IMG/VR virus record: IMGVR_UViG_3300020121_000089
Coordinates: 1 to 41,635 of that record
Origin: a virus
Reading direction: 5' to 3' (one strand)
DNA: 41,635 nucleotides
Position numbers and translations under genes: made by a program. Of this stretch, positions 12,440 through 41,580 are shown one piece after another. The notes below the pieces were generated by a model that saw only the letters and a list, made by a program, of their open reading frames with translations, did no database searches and was not told the DNA's origin. The first letter of the stretch is position 1. The number at the start of each line of letters is the position of its first letter.

Positions 12440-15141
12440 ACGCCGATTTCCGCGCCGATTTCTCGACGTTCATCGACGCGATCAACCAGGCCGATCTGAA
12501 GCTTGCCGACATGGGCAAGGGGGCCGAAAAGGTTGAGGGCCAACTGAACGCGATGGTGGACAAGTTCAGCGGCCGCGCGTTGATTCAACAGGCCTCGGAG
12601 CTGACGATCGCGATCGACAAGCTCGGCGGCGTCAGCACGCTCACCGCTCGAGAGATCGAGATCGTCGGCAACAAGGCGAACGAGGCCGTCGAGAAACTGC
12701 ACAAGCTCGGCTACGAGGTACCGCAGGGCCTTCAGGCGCTCGCCGACGCCACGAAGCAGGCGAGCACCGCGAACACCGAATACGCGGCCTCCTGGGTCGA
12801 CGTGGGTACCAAGTGGGTTACGTCGATCGCCGCCGGCCAGGTGCTCGCGGATATGTTCTGGAAGCTCGTCGACGTGGCGAAACAGGCCGCGCTCGAGCTG
12901 CCCAAGATCGCCCTGGCCGGCTCGGCGTTCGCATCCGTCGAGGATAACTTCCGACACCTGACGGAACAGGCCGGCCTGCTGAGCGACGCCCTGCTCGGCG
13001 ATCTCAATACCGCCACACACGGCACGGTGAGCAATCTCGAGCTGATGCAAACCGTGAATCAGGATCTCGCCGCCGGCATGAAACTCACGCGCGGCGAATT
13101 TGCCGCGATGGGCCAGGCGGCGTTCGCGCTCTCGCAGGCAGAGGGGATCGGCGTCACCGAGGCGCTTCAGAAAGTCAACAACGCGCTACTCACGGGCCGC
13201 GAAGCGTCGCTCGGCCGAATCGTCGATCTCGGCAAGATCAAACAGGCCGAGGAAGATCTGGCCGCCGCGCAGGGGCACAAGCTTGCCGATATGTCGCAGG
13301 AGGATCAGCTCTGGATTAAGCGCGAGGCCATGCTGCAACAGGTGGTCGCGGCGACACAGCGGCTCGGCGATCAAACCGACAGCCTCGGCGAGCACGTCGC
13401 GCAGGCAGAAAAACAATGGGCGGATTTCCAACTCGAGCTCGGCAAGGCGATCGCCAAATCGCCCGTGCTCGAGGCGGGATTCACCGCGATCAAGAACGCG
13501 CTCGAGGCCGCGTTTGGCGGTTCGCAAAAGACGCTCATCGAATCCATTGCGCACGCGATCGACGACGGCGCGATCGTGCTGCTGCGCTTCGCCGACGCGT
13601 CCGTCGATACCTTCACGATGGCGGGCAAGATGGCGATCGGGTTCGTGCGCGTCGTACAGGACGCCGCGCAAGTGATCGACGGCGTGCGCCTGGCGTGGCT
13701 GCTCGCCGACGAGGCGGCCGCGAAGGCCCTCGCGCTCACCGGCCTCGAGAAATACAAGGCGCGCGCGAACGAGCTGACGAACGACGTGAACGATCTCATG
13801 CTCAGCATGCAGAAGCGAAAGCAGGCCCTCGACGACGAGGCCACCTCGCAGGACAAGCTCGACGCCGCGGCGCTCAAAGCGCACGACATTCTGCAAAAAA
13901 CCGGCGACGCAATGGCCGCGGCCCGCGACAAAACCAAGGATCTCTCGGCCGCCCACTCTGAGCTGGTGCCGGCGATCGACGCCTCGGGCGAGTCGCTCGA
14001 TCGATTCAACAACCAAGGCAAAGAGCACAGTAAAACGGCCGCGCAAATGGAAGCCGACGAGCGGAAGATCCTCGAGGCCTGGCGCGATCTGAACAGCGTC
14101 GGCACCGATTACCACGCGACGCTCGACGCGATGGATCAGGGCACACGGCAAGTCGTCGAGGCGCTGCTCGCGCAGGGCGCGTCGATGAAGTCGCTCGCCG
14201 AGGTGTTCAGCCTGACGACGAGCCAATCGAAGGCGTTCACCGAGCAGCAGGCGATCAACAAGCAGGCGGCGCTCGACGTGACGCAACTGTGGAACGAGTA
14301 CAACACGGTCGTCGGCGACGGCAGCGCGAGCGCGTACGACAAGGCCGGGGCCGCGATCGACAAGTGGTACGCCGACAGTGTGGCGAAGCACCAAGCCGCG
14401 AAAACCGACACCGCGGCCTTCTACGATGCCGTCGCCGCCCTCGACGACGCCAAGTGGGCGAAGCTCAATCAGAACACGCTCGAGGCCGATCGGCACTCGC
14501 GCGAGTATGCGCAGAAGAAAGCCACCGACGACGAGGCCGCGTACCAGTTCGCGCTCGCCCACGCCGACAGCTTCAATCAGCAGTACATCGAAGGGCTCCG
14601 GCTGAACGCCGAGGCCTCGCGGATCGCCGCCGATACGTTCGGCCTGGCGTATGTGGAGAACGCCTCGAAAGCGACCGCGGCTATGCAGATGTTCGACGCG
14701 GCCGTGAACAAAACCGCCGCCGACGCCGCAGCCGCCGATGCCGCGCAGCGCAACTCGTTTCAGTTTACGGGCGCGATGGCCGTGGATCCCAAGTTCGCCA
14801 ACATGTCGACCGAGGCGAAGCAGCTCGCCGGCTATATCGATCTCTACGGGCGTGTGACACCGTTCGGGCAGCAGGCCGGGTTCGGATATTCCGCGGGCGG
14901 CCAGGGGCGCGCCGCGGGCGGGCCGGTGTCGGCCGGCAAACCGTACATCGTCGGCGAGGAAGGGCCCGAGCTGTTCGTGCCCTCGAGCAGCGGCGCGATC
15001 GTGCCGAACGGCGGCGGCGCGGCCGCGGGCGGCGTGGTGATCCACAACACGTTCAACATCGTCGACACCGAGGCCGGCATTACTCGGCGCGTCGCCGACA
15101 ACATCGCGCGCAGCCTGACGCGCGGCACGAAGCTCTCCTGA
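12430..15141 (+). CDS. Tape measure protein
   Basis: Sets tail length and takes part in DNA delivery, 903 residues. It is almost wholly helical, rich in Ala, Lys, Asp and Gln, with long coiled-coil stretches. The C-terminal part shows the common tape-measure ending GGPVSAGKPYIVGEEGPELF followed by VPSSSGAIVPNGG (about residues 838-863). GTG 12430 has AGGAG a few bases upstream and overlaps the chaperone extension. Length would predict a tail of medium length for a siphovirus. It ends sharing one base with the next gene. Confidence 0.93.
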   Translation: MGVNADFRADFSTFIDAINQADLKLADMGKGAEKVEGQLNAMVDKFSGRALIQQASELTIAIDKLGGVSTLTAREIEIVGNKANEAVEKLHKLGYEVPQGLQALADATKQASTANTEYAASWVDVGTKWVTSIAAGQVLADMFWKLVDVAKQAALELPKIALAGSAFASVEDNFRHLTEQAGLLSDALLGDLNTATHGTVSNLELMQTVNQDLAAGMKLTRGEFAAMGQAAFALSQAEGIGVTEALQKVNNALLTGREASLGRIVDLGKIKQAEEDLAAAQGHKLADMSQEDQLWIKREAMLQQVVAATQRLGDQTDSLGEHVAQAEKQWADFQLELGKAIAKSPVLEAGFTAIKNALEAAFGGSQKTLIESIAHAIDDGAIVLLRFADASVDTFTMAGKMAIGFVRVVQDAAQVIDGVRLAWLLADEAAAKALALTGLEKYKARANELTNDVNDLMLSMQKRKQALDDEATSQDKLDAAALKAHDILQKTGDAMAAARDKTKDLSAAHSELVPAIDASGESLDRFNNQGKEHSKTAAQMEADERKILEAWRDLNSVGTDYHATLDAMDQGTRQVVEALLAQGASMKSLAEVFSLTTSQSKAFTEQQAINKQAALDVTQLWNEYNTVVGDGSASAYDKAGAAIDKWYADSVAKHQAAKTDTAAFYDAVAALDDAKWAKLNQNTLEADRHSREYAQKKATDDEAAYQFALAHADSFNQQYIEGLRLNAEASRIAADTFGLAYVENASKATAAMQMFDAAVNKTAADAAAADAAQRNSFQFTGAMAVDPKFANMSTEAKQLAGYIDLYGRVTPFGQQAGFGYSAGGQGRAAGGPVSAGKPYIVGEEGPELFVPSSSGAIVPNGGGAAAGGVVIHNTFNIVDTEAGITRRVADNIARSLTRGTKLS

Positions 15142-17786
15142 TGGCGGGCCCCCCGAATACGCAGTACGGGATCGTCGGGGCGCGCCTCGGGTTCCGTTTG
15201 GGCTATCTCCCGGCCGATCTGTACGCCGATCGTGAAACGCACGCGATCTTCCGGCTCGATGACGTGCCCGTGAAAGTGCGCGTCGGTTCCACGACGATCC
15301 GCGACGTAATCAACGACACGCCGAATACGTGCGCGCTCACGATCGACGCCGCGACGCCCCCGAAGGCCGCGCAGCGGCTCACCGTGCGGATCAACAGCAA
15401 CAAGCCGCGCTCGTTGTTCGCCGGACCGCTGCAAACTGTCGGCCTGAGTTACGACCTGCTGCCCGCGCAGAACGTCTACCCGTGCCAGGCGATCGACGAC
15501 ACGCCGCTCGCGAATCGCAAATTGCCGTACGGGGCGTTTGTTGATACCTCGGCGACGATTGTGGGGCAGTGGCTCGTCGCGACGTTCGCGCCAGGCTGCC
15601 GGGCCGACTATGTGCAGGCGAATCTGCCGCCGATCTCCGTCAACTTTGACGGCTCCGAAGGCATGGACGGCTGTCTGCGGCAAGTCGCGAAACTGATCGG
15701 CGGCTACTTCTATTGGGAAGATCGCGCGCTGCACCTGTTCACCGAGGAACCGGGCGACGCGCCCGATCCGATCGATGACTCTCACCCGTTCCTCGACGAT
15801 CCGCGGATCGCGCTGTCGGTGGATACCTCGCAAGTGCGCACGCGCGTCTATGGGAAAGGCTACGCCGAACAGGTGATCGCCGACGTGGCGGCCGGCGATG
15901 CGATCGTGCCGATCTCGAACGCGGTGATGTTCAACCCGGCCGGCGGCCAGGCCGTGAGCGAAACACAACGGCTCCGCTACACCGGCACCGCGCCTGGTGG
16001 CGGCGGATCGCTCGTCGGGCCTGGCATCGGGCCGGCCGCCGGGCCGGCGCTCGCACTGCTGGACGGTGCCGGCGTTACACCCGGCCTGCACTACTACGCC
16101 ATCACGTTTCAAACCGCCGCCGGGGAATCGCTGATCAGTCCGTACCCGAGTATTACTGTCGGCTTTCGCGCCGCCCCGAACGTCGCGCCCGCGATCGGCA
16201 CGCCCACGTTCGCCGCGTCCGGAGGCCTCGACGCCGGCACGCATCAATACGCGTACAGCGAAGTCACCGCGAGCGGCGAAACACTGCCGTCACCGCTCGC
16301 GCCCTACACCGTACGCAGCCTCACGGATCCAACCGTCGCGCCCGTCTGGAACGGGACGCAGCAATCGGCCGGCGCAAGTCCGTACGGCCCCTGGCAAGCC
16401 GGCGCGCAAGTCCAATTCCAGTACTCGTATACGAGCGATCCGAACACGTTCGCGCACGAAACGAACCTCTCGCCCGCCTCGGCCGCCGTCACGCTGAAAC
16501 AGTACGCCGGCCTGCCGGCCGGCTGGTACATGCCGCCCAACATCGTCGTTCCGCCCTCGGCCGATCCGGCCGCCAAGTGGATCAACCTGTGGGGATTCGT
16601 ACCCGGCCAACAGTTTGTCGCCGTCTGGTGCGGCTCCGCGCAGAACATCTATCCCGGCAACTCGCCGACGATCGGCGCGTCCGCGGCCGGGAATCCGTTT
16701 ATCAACTATCCCGGCCCCGGCCCGGCGCTCAAATCCGTTCCCGTCACTGTGCCGGCGACGGCCGATCCCGTTGTCACCGGCCGCCGGCTCTATCGCACGG
16801 CCGCGGGCGGTTCGCAACTGAAGCTCGTGCAAGCCGTCGGCGTGGGCGCGGTGACTGTGAACGACACGATGGCCGACGCCGCCCTCGGCGCGAACGCCCC
16901 CGCAGCGCCAACCGCAGCTGCGGCCCGTGTCGCACTCGCCGGTATTCCGATCGGAGCCTCGACGGTCACCGGCCGCAAGATTTACCGCACGGCCGCAGGC
17001 GGTTCACAACTGAAACTCCTGGCGACGCTCGCCGACAACGTGACGACGACGTACACCGATGCGGCCGCCGACGCGGCCCTCGGGGCGAACGCGCCAGCTA
17101 ACGATACGTCGGGCCTTAAACAACCGGACGGCGTGGTGCTGGCCGGCGCGACCTCGCTTGTTGTCGCCGGGGCCGGTTGGGCGACGTTCCTTGGCGGTTG
17201 GGCGATCATCGGCAACGGCCAGCAAACGATCCGGTACACCGGCATCTCGGGCAACAGTCTCGTCGGGATCCCGGCGTCGGGCCCTGGCGCAATTACCGCC
17301 ACCGTGTCGTATGGCTCGACGATCACGGCCGCGGCCGCGCTGCTCGGCGTCACGGGCCTGCTGCGCGCGCTGATCAAAGGCGCGCCGATCAATCTGTGGG
17401 TACAGCGCGACAACCTCGACGCGCAAGCCGCGATCACCGCCGTCGATCACTCTGACGGCGTGATCGAACATCTGATCACCGATGAGCGCCGCGGCGAGGC
17501 CTCGCTCTCGCAACTCTGCGACGCCGATCTCGATCAGTACGCGTACCCGATTCAAACGGTGCCGTACGCGACACGCGACACCAAAACGAAAAGCGGCAAG
17601 CCGGTGGTGTTCAACCTCGCGACGCCCGCGATCCACGCCACGCTGACGATCCAAGAGGTGACGATCACCGAGATCGATGTGATGCCGCGGCTACCGCCGA
17701 AGTTCACCGCGTCGGCCTCATCGGTGCGCTATTCGCTCGACGACATTTTGCGCCGGCTCGGCGCGGCCCTCGACGTGACGACCTGA
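15141..17786 (+). CDS. Large tail hub/tip protein with repeated beta modules
   Basis: An 881-residue virion protein. The first 300 residues (LGYLPADLYADRETHAIFRLDD, ANLPPISVNFDGSEGMDGCL, LIGGYFYWEDRALHLFTEE) resemble a baseplate hub-type domain. The middle is made of beta-sandwich-like modules rich in Gly, Thr and Pro (YYAITFQTAAGESLISPYPS, HQYAYSEVTASGETLPSPLAP). A module at about 547-590 recurs at about 611-655. The end (LDQYAYPIQTVPYATRDTK, IQEVTITEID) returns to hub-like sequence. By position directly after the tape measure it is the distal tail or central fibre protein. The long in-frame sequence upstream of 15141 is only a shadow of the tape measure gene. Confidence 0.8.
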   Translation: MAGPPNTQYGIVGARLGFRLGYLPADLYADRETHAIFRLDDVPVKVRVGSTTIRDVINDTPNTCALTIDAATPPKAAQRLTVRINSNKPRSLFAGPLQTVGLSYDLLPAQNVYPCQAIDDTPLANRKLPYGAFVDTSATIVGQWLVATFAPGCRADYVQANLPPISVNFDGSEGMDGCLRQVAKLIGGYFYWEDRALHLFTEEPGDAPDPIDDSHPFLDDPRIALSVDTSQVRTRVYGKGYAEQVIADVAAGDAIVPISNAVMFNPAGGQAVSETQRLRYTGTAPGGGGSLVGPGIGPAAGPALALLDGAGVTPGLHYYAITFQTAAGESLISPYPSITVGFRAAPNVAPAIGTPTFAASGGLDAGTHQYAYSEVTASGETLPSPLAPYTVRSLTDPTVAPVWNGTQQSAGASPYGPWQAGAQVQFQYSYTSDPNTFAHETNLSPASAAVTLKQYAGLPAGWYMPPNIVVPPSADPAAKWINLWGFVPGQQFVAVWCGSAQNIYPGNSPTIGASAAGNPFINYPGPGPALKSVPVTVPATADPVVTGRRLYRTAAGGSQLKLVQAVGVGAVTVNDTMADAALGANAPAAPTAAAARVALAGIPIGASTVTGRKIYRTAAGGSQLKLLATLADNVTTTYTDAAADAALGANAPANDTSGLKQPDGVVLAGATSLVVAGAGWATFLGGWAIIGNGQQTIRYTGISGNSLVGIPASGPGAITATVSYGSTITAAAALLGVTGLLRALIKGAPINLWVQRDNLDAQAAITAVDHSDGVIEHLITDERRGEASLSQLCDADLDQYAYPIQTVPYATRDTKTKSGKPVVFNLATPAIHATLTIQEVTITEIDVMPRLPPKFTASASSVRYSLDDILRRLGAALDVTT
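16775..17102 (+). repeat. Intragenic tandem-type duplication in the tail hub gene
   Basis: About 130 bases at 16775-16906 recur at 16967-17098, offset 192-195 bases. Both copies encode VTGR-[RK]-[LI]-YRTAAGGSQLKL followed further on by ADAALGANAPA. Differences are mainly at third codon positions, so the duplication is old and under protein-level selection. Confidence 0.85.
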
Positions 17787-39450: not shown

Positions 39451-39573
39451 ATGATCCGGTACTGCCCGATGTGCAACCGACGCACCGAAACGCGCGACGA
39501 GCACGTCGGGCCGTTTTGTGTTCGCACGTGCTCGGCGTGCGGGCACGTCCACACGATTCGGGAGATCGAATGA
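39451..39573 (+). CDS. Tiny zinc-ribbon protein (40 aa)
   Basis: MIRYCPMCNRRTETRDEHVG, then CVRTCSACGHVHTIREIE. Two CxxC pairs about 20 residues apart form a compact zinc ribbon. The stop overlaps the next start by ATGA, so it is likely coupled to the ATPase. Only four bases separate it from the preceding stop. Confidence 0.65.
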   Translation: MIRYCPMCNRRTETRDEHVGPFCVRTCSACGHVHTIREIE

Positions 39574-41207
39574 CAACGATCCCGCTCGGGTTCGAGGTGC
39601 ATGCCGGCGGCCCCGTGGCCGTGCCGCTGAAACACCTGGCGATCACCGGGCAGACACAAGAGGCCGGGAAAACGACGGCCCTCGAGGCGTTGATCACGCG
39701 GGCCGGCGTGCGGGCTGTCACGTTCGTCACCAAGCGCGGCGAGGGCGCGTTCGTCAACGCGCGCCGGATCGATCCGTATTTCCGCGAGCAGGCCGACTGG
39801 CAGTTCGTCGCGTCGATCCTCGAGGCCTCGCGCGGCGAGAAACTGAAGTTCGAGCGCGCGTGGATCATTCGGGCAAGCCGCGGCGCGCGCACGCTTGCCG
39901 ACGTGCACCGGAACGTCAAGCGCGCACAAGAAAAGGCGACGGGCCTCAGCGCCGATGTCTATCTCACCCTCGACGCCTATCTCGAGATCGTCGTCCCGCA
40001 GATCGCGCGCGTCACGTGGGCCCCGGCGTTGAGGTTGTCGCCCGGCGTCAACGCGATGGATCTCACCGGGCTCACCGTGGAGTTGCAGCACCTCGTGATC
40101 AAGTCGGCGCTCGATTGGATCCTCGAGCACGCGGCCGACACCGTGGTCGTTGTGCCCGAGGCGTGGAAGTTTATCCCGCAGGGCCGCAACACGCCCGTCA
40201 AGCTCGCGGCCGAGTCGTTCATTCGGCAGGCGGCCGCGCTGCAGAACTATCTGTGGCTCGACAGTCAAGATCTCGGCGGGATCGACAAGACGATTCTGCG
40301 CAGCGTGCCCGTATGGTTGCTCGGCGTGCAGCGCGAGGCCAACGAGATCGCGCGCACGCTCGCGAACATTCCGGCCGGCGTGCACAAACCGAAGGCCGCC
40401 GATCTCGCGCTGCTCGGGCTCGGCGAGTTTTACGCGTGCTACGGCAAGTACGCGATCCGGACGTACGTGCAGCCGGCCTGGCTGTCGGCCGACGAGGCGC
40501 TCGAGGTGGCGCTCGGGACGCGGCCGGCCCTCGGCCGGGCCTGGCGACAGCGGATCGTGACGCTCGATCAACAGGAGGACACCGTGAACAAGGCAGACGC
40601 CGAGGCCTTACAACGTGACAACGACGCGCTACGCCGCGAGAACGCGCAGCTGCGCGAGCGGCTCGAGCAGCTCGAGGAAAGGGGCGCACATGCAGCACGA
40701 GGATCCAGGGATGCGGCGGTTCCTGCGCGACACGCTGATTCTGTGCGCCAGTCTGGTACTCACCGAGCCGGGGACAACGCCGCGGCAGTTGCGCCTCGTG
40801 CGGGGGCTGCTGCGCCAGGCGCGCCAGTTGGGGATGCTGCGCTCGTCGATGAAACGCTCTACCAAGCGATCAAGGCGCGGCTCGTCGCCGACGCGCCCGC
40901 GATCCTCGAGATAGTGCTCGCGCAACCGGAGATCGAGATCACCATTCAACGCCCGCGGCTACAGTTCGAGGAACACTCGCTCAAGTGGCGGATCGTGCGG
41001 CTACTCCGCGATCAACTGTTCAAGGGTGAGCCGCTGTCGTGTGGGCAAATCCGCAGCGCCCTCAAGCGCACGGGGCCCGACGCTAACACCGCGAACATCG
41101 GCCGGGCAATGGCCGACTTGGTACGGGCCGGCATATTCACCGACGAGGGCAGCGGGTACCGTCCGGTGCCAGGGATCCCCGTGCGCACGATCGAAGGCGA
41201 GCAGTAG
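39570..41207 (+). CDS. P-loop ATPase with coiled coil and C-terminal winged helix (545 aa)
   Basis: A predicted FtsK/HerA/VirB4-like ATPase. Walker A GQTQEAGKT at 27-35; Walker B TVVVVPEAWKF at 191-201 (glutamate in P-E); then LWLDSQDLGGID (228-239) and LGVQREANEIARTLANI as further core elements. Residues 344-371 form a leucine-zipper-like coiled coil (ALQRDNDALRRENAQLRERL). Residues 372-424 are an Ala/Arg/Gly/Pro linker. Residues 469-530 form a winged helix (SLKWRIVRLLRDQLF, SCGQIRSALKR, MADLVRAGIF). It could move or handle DNA at replication or packaging. The linker region contains a better-coding alternative frame at 40690. Confidence 0.78.
   Translation: MTTIPLGFEVHAGGPVAVPLKHLAITGQTQEAGKTTALEALITRAGVRAVTFVTKRGEGAFVNARRIDPYFREQADWQFVASILEASRGEKLKFERAWIIRASRGARTLADVHRNVKRAQEKATGLSADVYLTLDAYLEIVVPQIARVTWAPALRLSPGVNAMDLTGLTVELQHLVIKSALDWILEHAADTVVVVPEAWKFIPQGRNTPVKLAAESFIRQAAALQNYLWLDSQDLGGIDKTILRSVPVWLLGVQREANEIARTLANIPAGVHKPKAADLALLGLGEFYACYGKYAIRTYVQPAWLSADEALEVALGTRPALGRAWRQRIVTLDQQEDTVNKADAEALQRDNDALRRENAQLRERLEQLEERGAHAARGSRDAAVPARHADSVRQSGTHRAGDNAAAVAPRAGAAAPGAPVGDAALVDETLYQAIKARLVADAPAILEIVLAQPEIEITIQRPRLQFEEHSLKWRIVRLLRDQLFKGEPLSCGQIRSALKRTGPDANTANIGRAMADLVRAGIFTDEGSGYRPVPGIPVRTIEGEQ
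40690..40914 (+). CDS. Overlapping frame inside the ATPase gene (74 aa)
   Basis: MQHEDPGMRRFLRDTLILCA, SLVLTEPGTTPRQLRLVRGL, LRQARQLGML. It has GAGGAAAGG 8 bases before its ATG. From 40690 to about 40850 nearly all third codon positions in this frame are G or C, as in the other genes, while the ATPase frame there has mostly A/T at third positions and codes for low-complexity sequence. After about 40850 the pattern switches back. Either a real gene overprinted on the linker, or two genes joined by a frameshift or error. Confidence 0.55.
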   Translation: MQHEDPGMRRFLRDTLILCASLVLTEPGTTPRQLRLVRGLLRQARQLGMLRSSMKRSTKRSRRGSSPTRPRSSR

Positions 41208-41220
41208 GGGCGCATGTTCG

Positions 41221-41580
41221 ATGCCCTATGCCCCGCCTCGACCGTGCCCCACGTGCGGGCGTGTGCGGTGCCCCGTGCACGTCGCCGGCCCGCCGAGCCG
41301 ATGGGATCGCCCGACGCCCGAGGCCGCAACACCTCGAGTGCGTGGGCGCGAGCTGCAACGACGACGCGCTCGACTGTTCGCCCGCGAGCCGTTCTGTCGG
41401 CAGTGTGCAAGCGTCGGCGTGCGCCGCGTGGCAACCATTCGCGACCACATAACTCCACTAGCCGAGGGCGGGCTCGACGATGAAACGAACGAACAACCGC
41501 TCTGCCAAGCATGCAGCGACGCCAAAACCGACGACGAAGGGAAACGCGGCCGAATCCGCGCGCGTGCGCGGCGCGACTAA
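41221..41580 (+). CDS. HNH endonuclease
   Basis: A 119-residue nuclease. Zinc-binding CPTCGRVRC and CRQC ... CQAC pairs, and the HNH core RVATIRDHITPLAEGGLDDE followed by NEQPLCQACSDAKT. The first His of the motif is in R-D-H-I and the Asn in T-N-E-Q. Located on the circle just before the methyltransferase and terminase genes, as in cos-type phages, where the HNH protein helps terminase cut DNA. AGGGG lies upstream of the ATG. The in-frame sequence before 41221 is a shadow of the ATPase. Confidence 0.88.
   Translation: MPYAPPRPCPTCGRVRCPVHVAGPPSRWDRPTPEAATPRVRGRELQRRRARLFAREPFCRQCASVGVRRVATIRDHITPLAEGGLDDETNEQPLCQACSDAKTDDEGKRGRIRARARRD

Follow-up and report, generated by a model that had tools for sequence, protein, structure and literature searches.

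The locus examined here raises the question of why a stretch of DNA within an ATPase gene should be coded more strongly in another frame than in that of the ATPase, and what that other frame might produce. The window, by which we mean the whole 41,635-base viral record that was analysed, comes from a tailed phage as judged by its recognised genes, which include a terminase, a portal, a major head protein, RusA, a replication initiation-like protein and a Cas4-like nuclease. A preliminary description of the window had pointed to an ATG at 40690, preceded by GAGGAAAGGGG and opening a frame of 74 residues, coordinates that we confirm with a TAG at 40912-40914. The features needed for the argument are these:

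39570..41207, plus strand: gene for a HerA/VirB4-like ATPase of 545 aa (viral relatives, AlphaFold2, Foldseek)
Residues 1 to about 325: ATPase core
Residues 341-378: coiled-coil helix of the ATPase (AlphaFold2)
Residues about 379-427: disordered linker of the ATPase
Residues 428-545: C-terminal helical/winged-helix-like domain of the ATPase
40573..40586, plus strand: AGGAGG (40573-40578) and in-frame GTG (40584), a probable internal start (Shine-Dalgarno, SD, -10.3)
40674-40684, plus strand: SD-like GAGGAAAGGGG of the putative nested gene, within the codons for the coiled-coil end (E-E-R-G)
40683..40848, plus strand: ATPase-frame linker over the nested gene, predicted disordered (pLDDT) and stop-free (0 stops in 16 loci)
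40690..40914, plus strand: predicted nested +1-frame gene of 74 codons (codon-phase LLR 29; tblastn/blastp)
40849..41204, plus strand: C-terminal domain of the ATPase, in frame with the core (most relatives match by tblastn in the ATPase frame)

The gene that contains this segment encodes a HerA-like RecA fold with Walker motifs, which places its product among the HerA/VirB4/FtsK-like ATPases. The AlphaFold2 model, made with 74 aligned relatives, is a confident fold (pLDDT 86.5) with an ordered C-terminal domain from residue 428, and with Foldseek it retrieved HerA (9x1m/4d2i, E about 1e-14) and VirB4 (4ag5, 1e-10); a PDB profile match to 8yho DUF87 (8e-4) was also obtained, and the GxTQxxGKT and PEAW motifs are conserved in the family. 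Residues 382-425, which correspond to the overlap with the nested gene, have a pLDDT below 50, and the ATPase stretch over the nested gene is rich in Ala/Arg/Gly/Pro. Where the coiled coil begins, the AGGAGG and the GTG at 40584 would probably give rise to a short product made up of the coiled coil and the C-terminal domain. In-frame starts at -8 kcal/mol or better follow the core in 40 of 76 relatives vs 7% of control blocks, and the recurrence across the family of a near-perfect AGGAGG with an in-frame GTG or ATG at this point (window 40573-40586, relatives L001-L118) suggests that such an internally started product may be general to it. The domains are also found in other arrangements: in L018 the coiled-coil and C-terminal part and the ATPase core are separate genes; in L080, L084 and L107 the ATPase ends shortly past its core, and the place of the C-terminal domain is taken by a small Cys-rich (zinc-ribbon-like) protein that follows; and at about 4177 in L036 the start of the ATPase is fused directly to the end of the C-terminal domain, through a deletion or an assembly join.

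The coding signal changes phase within the linker. G+C at the three ATPase-frame codon positions is 0.68/0.47/0.89 in the core and 0.68/0.46/0.81 in the C-terminal domain, and becomes 0.89/0.69/0.47 in the nested segment, which is the signature of coding in the +1 frame. A codon model was built from the other genes of the window; under it the +1 frame leads by 29.4 log units in the best stretch of 35 codons, which begins at ATPase codon 384 (about 40722). No alternative-frame signal is stronger in the 41 genes and 9,295 windows compared, the runner-up standing at 10.6. That runner-up, a +1 signal at about codon 280 of 15141-17786 in the window, is maybe another hidden ORF or chance. Both the stronger coding in the 40690 frame and the low complexity of an ATPase frame that is well coded on either flank had been remarked upon in the preliminary description, and both are borne out by these measures. 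The +1 frame is top-scoring of six in all 17 nested segments; reverse-strand coding was rejected, the best reverse frame scoring below +1 in each of the 17, with a small margin in the window (-3.92 vs -3.88 per codon). The predicted product, of which DTLILCASLVLTEPGTTPR is an example peptide, is modelled by AlphaFold2 at moderate confidence (pLDDT 67) as two helices (6-24 and 31-46) and a basic tail, the latter where the gene overlaps the coding sequence of the C-terminal domain.

The same switch of phase is present in relatives of the ATPase. Searches with the core found 36 viral loci and searches by profile 72, many on the same contigs, with nine from MAGs; removal of duplicates left 77 distinct loci, each with at least 100 codons after the core. 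ATPase relatives L113-L118 lie on Bathyarchaeota and Asgard MAG contigs, so that archaeal viruses or elements may also carry members of the family, and neither the ATPase nor the nested proteins were found in 50,697 records of isolated phages. Scanning the 77 loci for +1 minus ATPase-frame log-likelihood in 35-codon windows detected a phase switch in 16, including the window, with LLR values of 19.8-51 against a control maximum of 5.6 over the cores of these genes; L079 scores 11, another four loci score 9-10, and the remainder lie near or below zero. Positional G+C shifts towards the +1 pattern in the nested loci and is unshifted in control linkers. The nested ORFs occupy two sites, between the coiled coil and the C-terminal domain in the window and most other loci, and between the core and the coiled coil in L060, L075, L079 and L081. 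Their products are 52-85 aa long, mostly helical and always in +1, and they fall into at least nine apparently unrelated groups without detectable mutual similarity:

Nested family A: window, L002, L030, L059
Nested family B: L012, L019, L031
Nested family C: L032, L010, L004
Single or paired nested groups: L009, L011, L060, L079, L081a, L075b/L081b
L075 4226-4384: second-site nested +1 gene, right after the ATPase core
L081 4061-4249 and 4286-4444: second-site nested +1 genes, two ORFs in tandem
L079 4085-4312: second-site nested +1 gene

The nested protein of the window matches those at the same site in L002 (3e-7) and L030 (3e-6) by tblastn, and that of L059 (7e-6) by blastp, and the members of family A are only about 40-60% identical. 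The L079 product carries a zinc-finger-like Cys/His pattern. Pfam and PHROGs gave no match above chance for any nested protein, nucleases included, and a search of IMG/VR for standalone copies of families A, B and C and of the single nested proteins returned only the known ATPase loci.

Having two frames open over the same bases, we asked which of them is constrained, a comparison of homologues and of synonymous rates that the preliminary description had also proposed. One frame was randomly recoded with synonymous codons in 1000 simulations and similarity in the other was compared, some within-family pairs (L010-L004) and pairs with L009 being uninformative in this test. The +1 similarity exceeds the level forced by the ATPase frame, the observed value being reached in six pairs by at most 8 of 1000 simulations and in four of these by none. 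Observed against predicted values are 86 vs 41 +/- 10 for L002-L030, 88 vs 45 +/- 9 for L019-L031 and 153 vs 65 +/- 17 for L032-L010 (0/1000 in each case), and for the window 81 vs 46 to L002 (6/1000) and 72 vs 47 to L030 (18/1000). Under the reverse assumption, in which +1 alone is coding, similarity in the ATPase frame is mostly at the expected level, forced by +1. L032 and L010 form the closest pair, with a pN/pS of 0.36 in +1, of 1.60 when the same bases are read in the ATPase frame, and of 0.26 in the core; within family A the +1 values are saturated and uninformative (0.90-0.93) and other pairs are too diverged, so that direct evidence of selection comes mainly from family C and not from the family of the window. 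The ATPase frame holds no stops over 16 nested loci where 13.1 are expected from random +1 recoding (joint P about 7e-7, for loci that are partly dependent on one another and were chosen among relatives in which the frame extends to the C-terminal domain), and no relative with both a nested gene and an ATPase-frame stop was met among the loci inspected. The absence of stops in the face of this expectation indicates that both frames are used and, together with +1 conservation and pN/pS, that selection acts on the protein of the nested frame and on the readability of the ATPase frame. Neither frame is interrupted by a stop over the overlap, and both are selected to be readable.

The nested frame also appears to have its own start. 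At the nested ATGs an SD tetramer lies at the proper distance in 13 of 15 cases, compared with 59 of 388 (15%) out-of-frame ATGs of the core (p=6e-9), a test that leaves out L087, where the strong SD belongs to an in-frame GTG and not to the +1 start, the doubtful starts of L059 and L012, the latter of which would require CTG, and the GTG start of L075. The predicted initiation signals of the nested gene in the window are GAGGAAAGG and ATG 40690, and the duplex energy of the SD-like GAGGAAAGGGG is -7.0, which is better than for 96.6% of control ATGs. Many nested loci have the SD supplied by the codons of the coiled-coil end (E-K-G, GAGAAAGGG), and the second-site ORFs of L081 and L079 have strong SDs of their own (AAGGAG).

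Nested sequences swap independently of their flanks. L030 and L011 are 0.80 identical in the core and 0.81 in the C-terminal domain and only 0.52 in the nested segment, which is the level of chance (0.51, shuffled), and L009 and L032 give 0.85, 0.86 and 0.57 for the same three parts; for L010 and L032 it is the nested segment that is the closer (0.73 vs 0.62 in the C-terminal domain). At the second site, L075 and L081 share a cassette that is 98% identical between flanks that are 74% and 66% identical, and its two changes within the ORF body are synonymous, at +1 third positions, such that only the last codon differs in sense. An HNH endonuclease gene (PF01844, 3.7e-8) adjoins the ATPase gene downstream at 41224-41580 in the window, in the frame of the nested gene, and could aid exchange at the locus.

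We propose a model for this locus that most reasonably fits these observations, in which 40690-40914 is very probably a real gene nested in +1 with its own start, and the open, disordered linker of the ATPase is a site of exchangeable cassettes. Coding phase, conservation of the +1 protein, the SD and ATG, the open host frame and swapping all support it computationally. Ribosomes would start independently at ATG 40690 by way of the SD embedded in the codons of the coiled-coil end, yielding a 74-residue helical protein with a basic tail, while for those translating the ATPase, one frame back, these bases would encode a disordered spacer that joins the coiled coil to the C-terminal domain. As this spacer may tolerate almost any sequence provided it stays open, it could serve as a landing site that different small genes occupy and exchange as cassettes, with the ATPase linker as a by-product. 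Translation of the nested gene is predicted from its sequence, and we infer a history in which the gene was captured and the linker derived from it, since ordinary codon use and order are features of the nested frame that the linker lacks. The preference for +1 over +2 would follow from codon composition, as G+C-rich genes have few stops one base back.

A programmed +1 frameshift at the coiled-coil end, which would give an ATPase-coiled coil-helical tail protein in alternation with the full ATPase, would account for a +1 frame that in the window already runs without stops from GTG 40615, ahead of the ATG, and is likewise open there in several relatives. The SD-like AAAGGGG could also stimulate frameshifting, as an SD-like sequence does in prfB. 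Frameshifting, however, needs neither an ATG nor an SD, and most relatives have both, properly spaced and in the same position; inspection by eye revealed no recurring +1 shift site, and the second-site ORFs with their own strong SDs, two of them in tandem in L081, also speak against it. The preliminary description had the shift leading to a separate winged-helix protein, a view that is disfavoured because a single open frame runs through both the ATPase and the C-terminal domain in nearly all relatives, and we consider a frameshift unlikely.

Less probable still is an account without a second protein, in which the +1 signal arises incidentally from a disordered, Ala/Arg/Gly/Pro-rich linker of a genome rich in G+C. 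The linkers are indeed of low complexity, alternative frames often stay open over long stretches when G+C is high, and an open +1 frame given the ATPase-frame protein is not by itself rare (joint P 0.006), but control linkers of the same G+C in relatives lack the phase switch, the +1 codon use is like that of an ordinary gene of these phages, conservation goes beyond what the linker allows, and the pN/pS contrast and the SD with its ATG also count against such an account. The least probable explanation, and one that we reject, is that a pair of indels at about 40690 and 40850, from sequencing or assembly, created an artificial switch of frame, a possibility also raised in the preliminary description. 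The window is a single metagenomic assembly and its two frames complement each other, yet no fewer than 15 other contigs, assembled from different metagenomes, share this architecture with different nested sequences. L012 and L028, which come from two metagenomes, do not differ across the locus, and if the frames were merged, the middle of the ATPase would contain an unrelated, variable protein as well as an SD and an ATG. Of the explanations that had been offered for the window, the overprinted gene is thus the one that these results uphold.

Returning to the nested gene with its own start, the small size, variability and patchy occurrence of these proteins lead us to propose that they are most likely accessory or counter-host phage factors. 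We also incline, though with some reserve, to a wider reading in which the interdomain linkers of this ATPase are dedicated sockets for captured, interchangeable +1 genes, for example fast-evolving anti-host or accessory factors, and in which wrong-frame reading made the linker, the reverse of classical overprinting; the locus would then give three products, the full ATPase, an internally started coiled-coil and C-terminal protein and the nested protein. Gene callers drop the weaker of two overlapping ORFs, and such genes are therefore likely missing from phage annotation even though the nested frame holds an ordinary codon signal. We suggest disordered linkers as places to search for hidden phage genes, and with nine or more nested genes that are apparently unrelated, the same sites offer a replicated natural experiment on the origin and exchange of overlapping genes.

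Genes nested in this manner are already known in phages, as with gene E within gene D of phiX174 and Rz1 within Rz of lambda. Those pairs resemble the present one in that a small gene with its own ribosome-binding site lies fully, or almost fully, within another in a different frame, but they are single and fixed with both proteins constrained, whereas here the nested gene is exchangeable and its partner a little-constrained disordered spacer (phiX174 gene overlaps are cited in PMC8227390). In viral genes overprinted de novo, two proteins are encoded by one stretch of DNA and disorder in one relieves the constraint (reviewed in PMC8227390), as in our two predicted proteins, one of them disordered. 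There, however, it is usually the new nested protein that is disordered and oddly coded; here the nested protein is ordered and ordinarily coded and the host linker is odd, which suggests that the linker rather than the nested gene is the overprint. We found no prior literature on this ATPase-linker locus, and the closest work is that on the ShiLan domain and related out-of-frame HNH insertions in phage DNA methylase genes, in which a 195-aa HNH homing endonuclease is encoded in the third frame (Arsenault et al. 2025, PMC11855218). Both systems have an insertion in a phage enzyme gene whose host frame stays open and forms a loop, an ordered out-of-frame protein with its own start, and a patchy, disjunct distribution between phages. 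Here, however, the cassette holds no self-homing enzyme, its products of 52-85 aa having no nuclease motif or Pfam or PHROG nuclease match, and what sets the HerA-like ATPase apart is a constant +1 frame, recognisable SDs and the many unrelated occupants of two linkers between folded domains.
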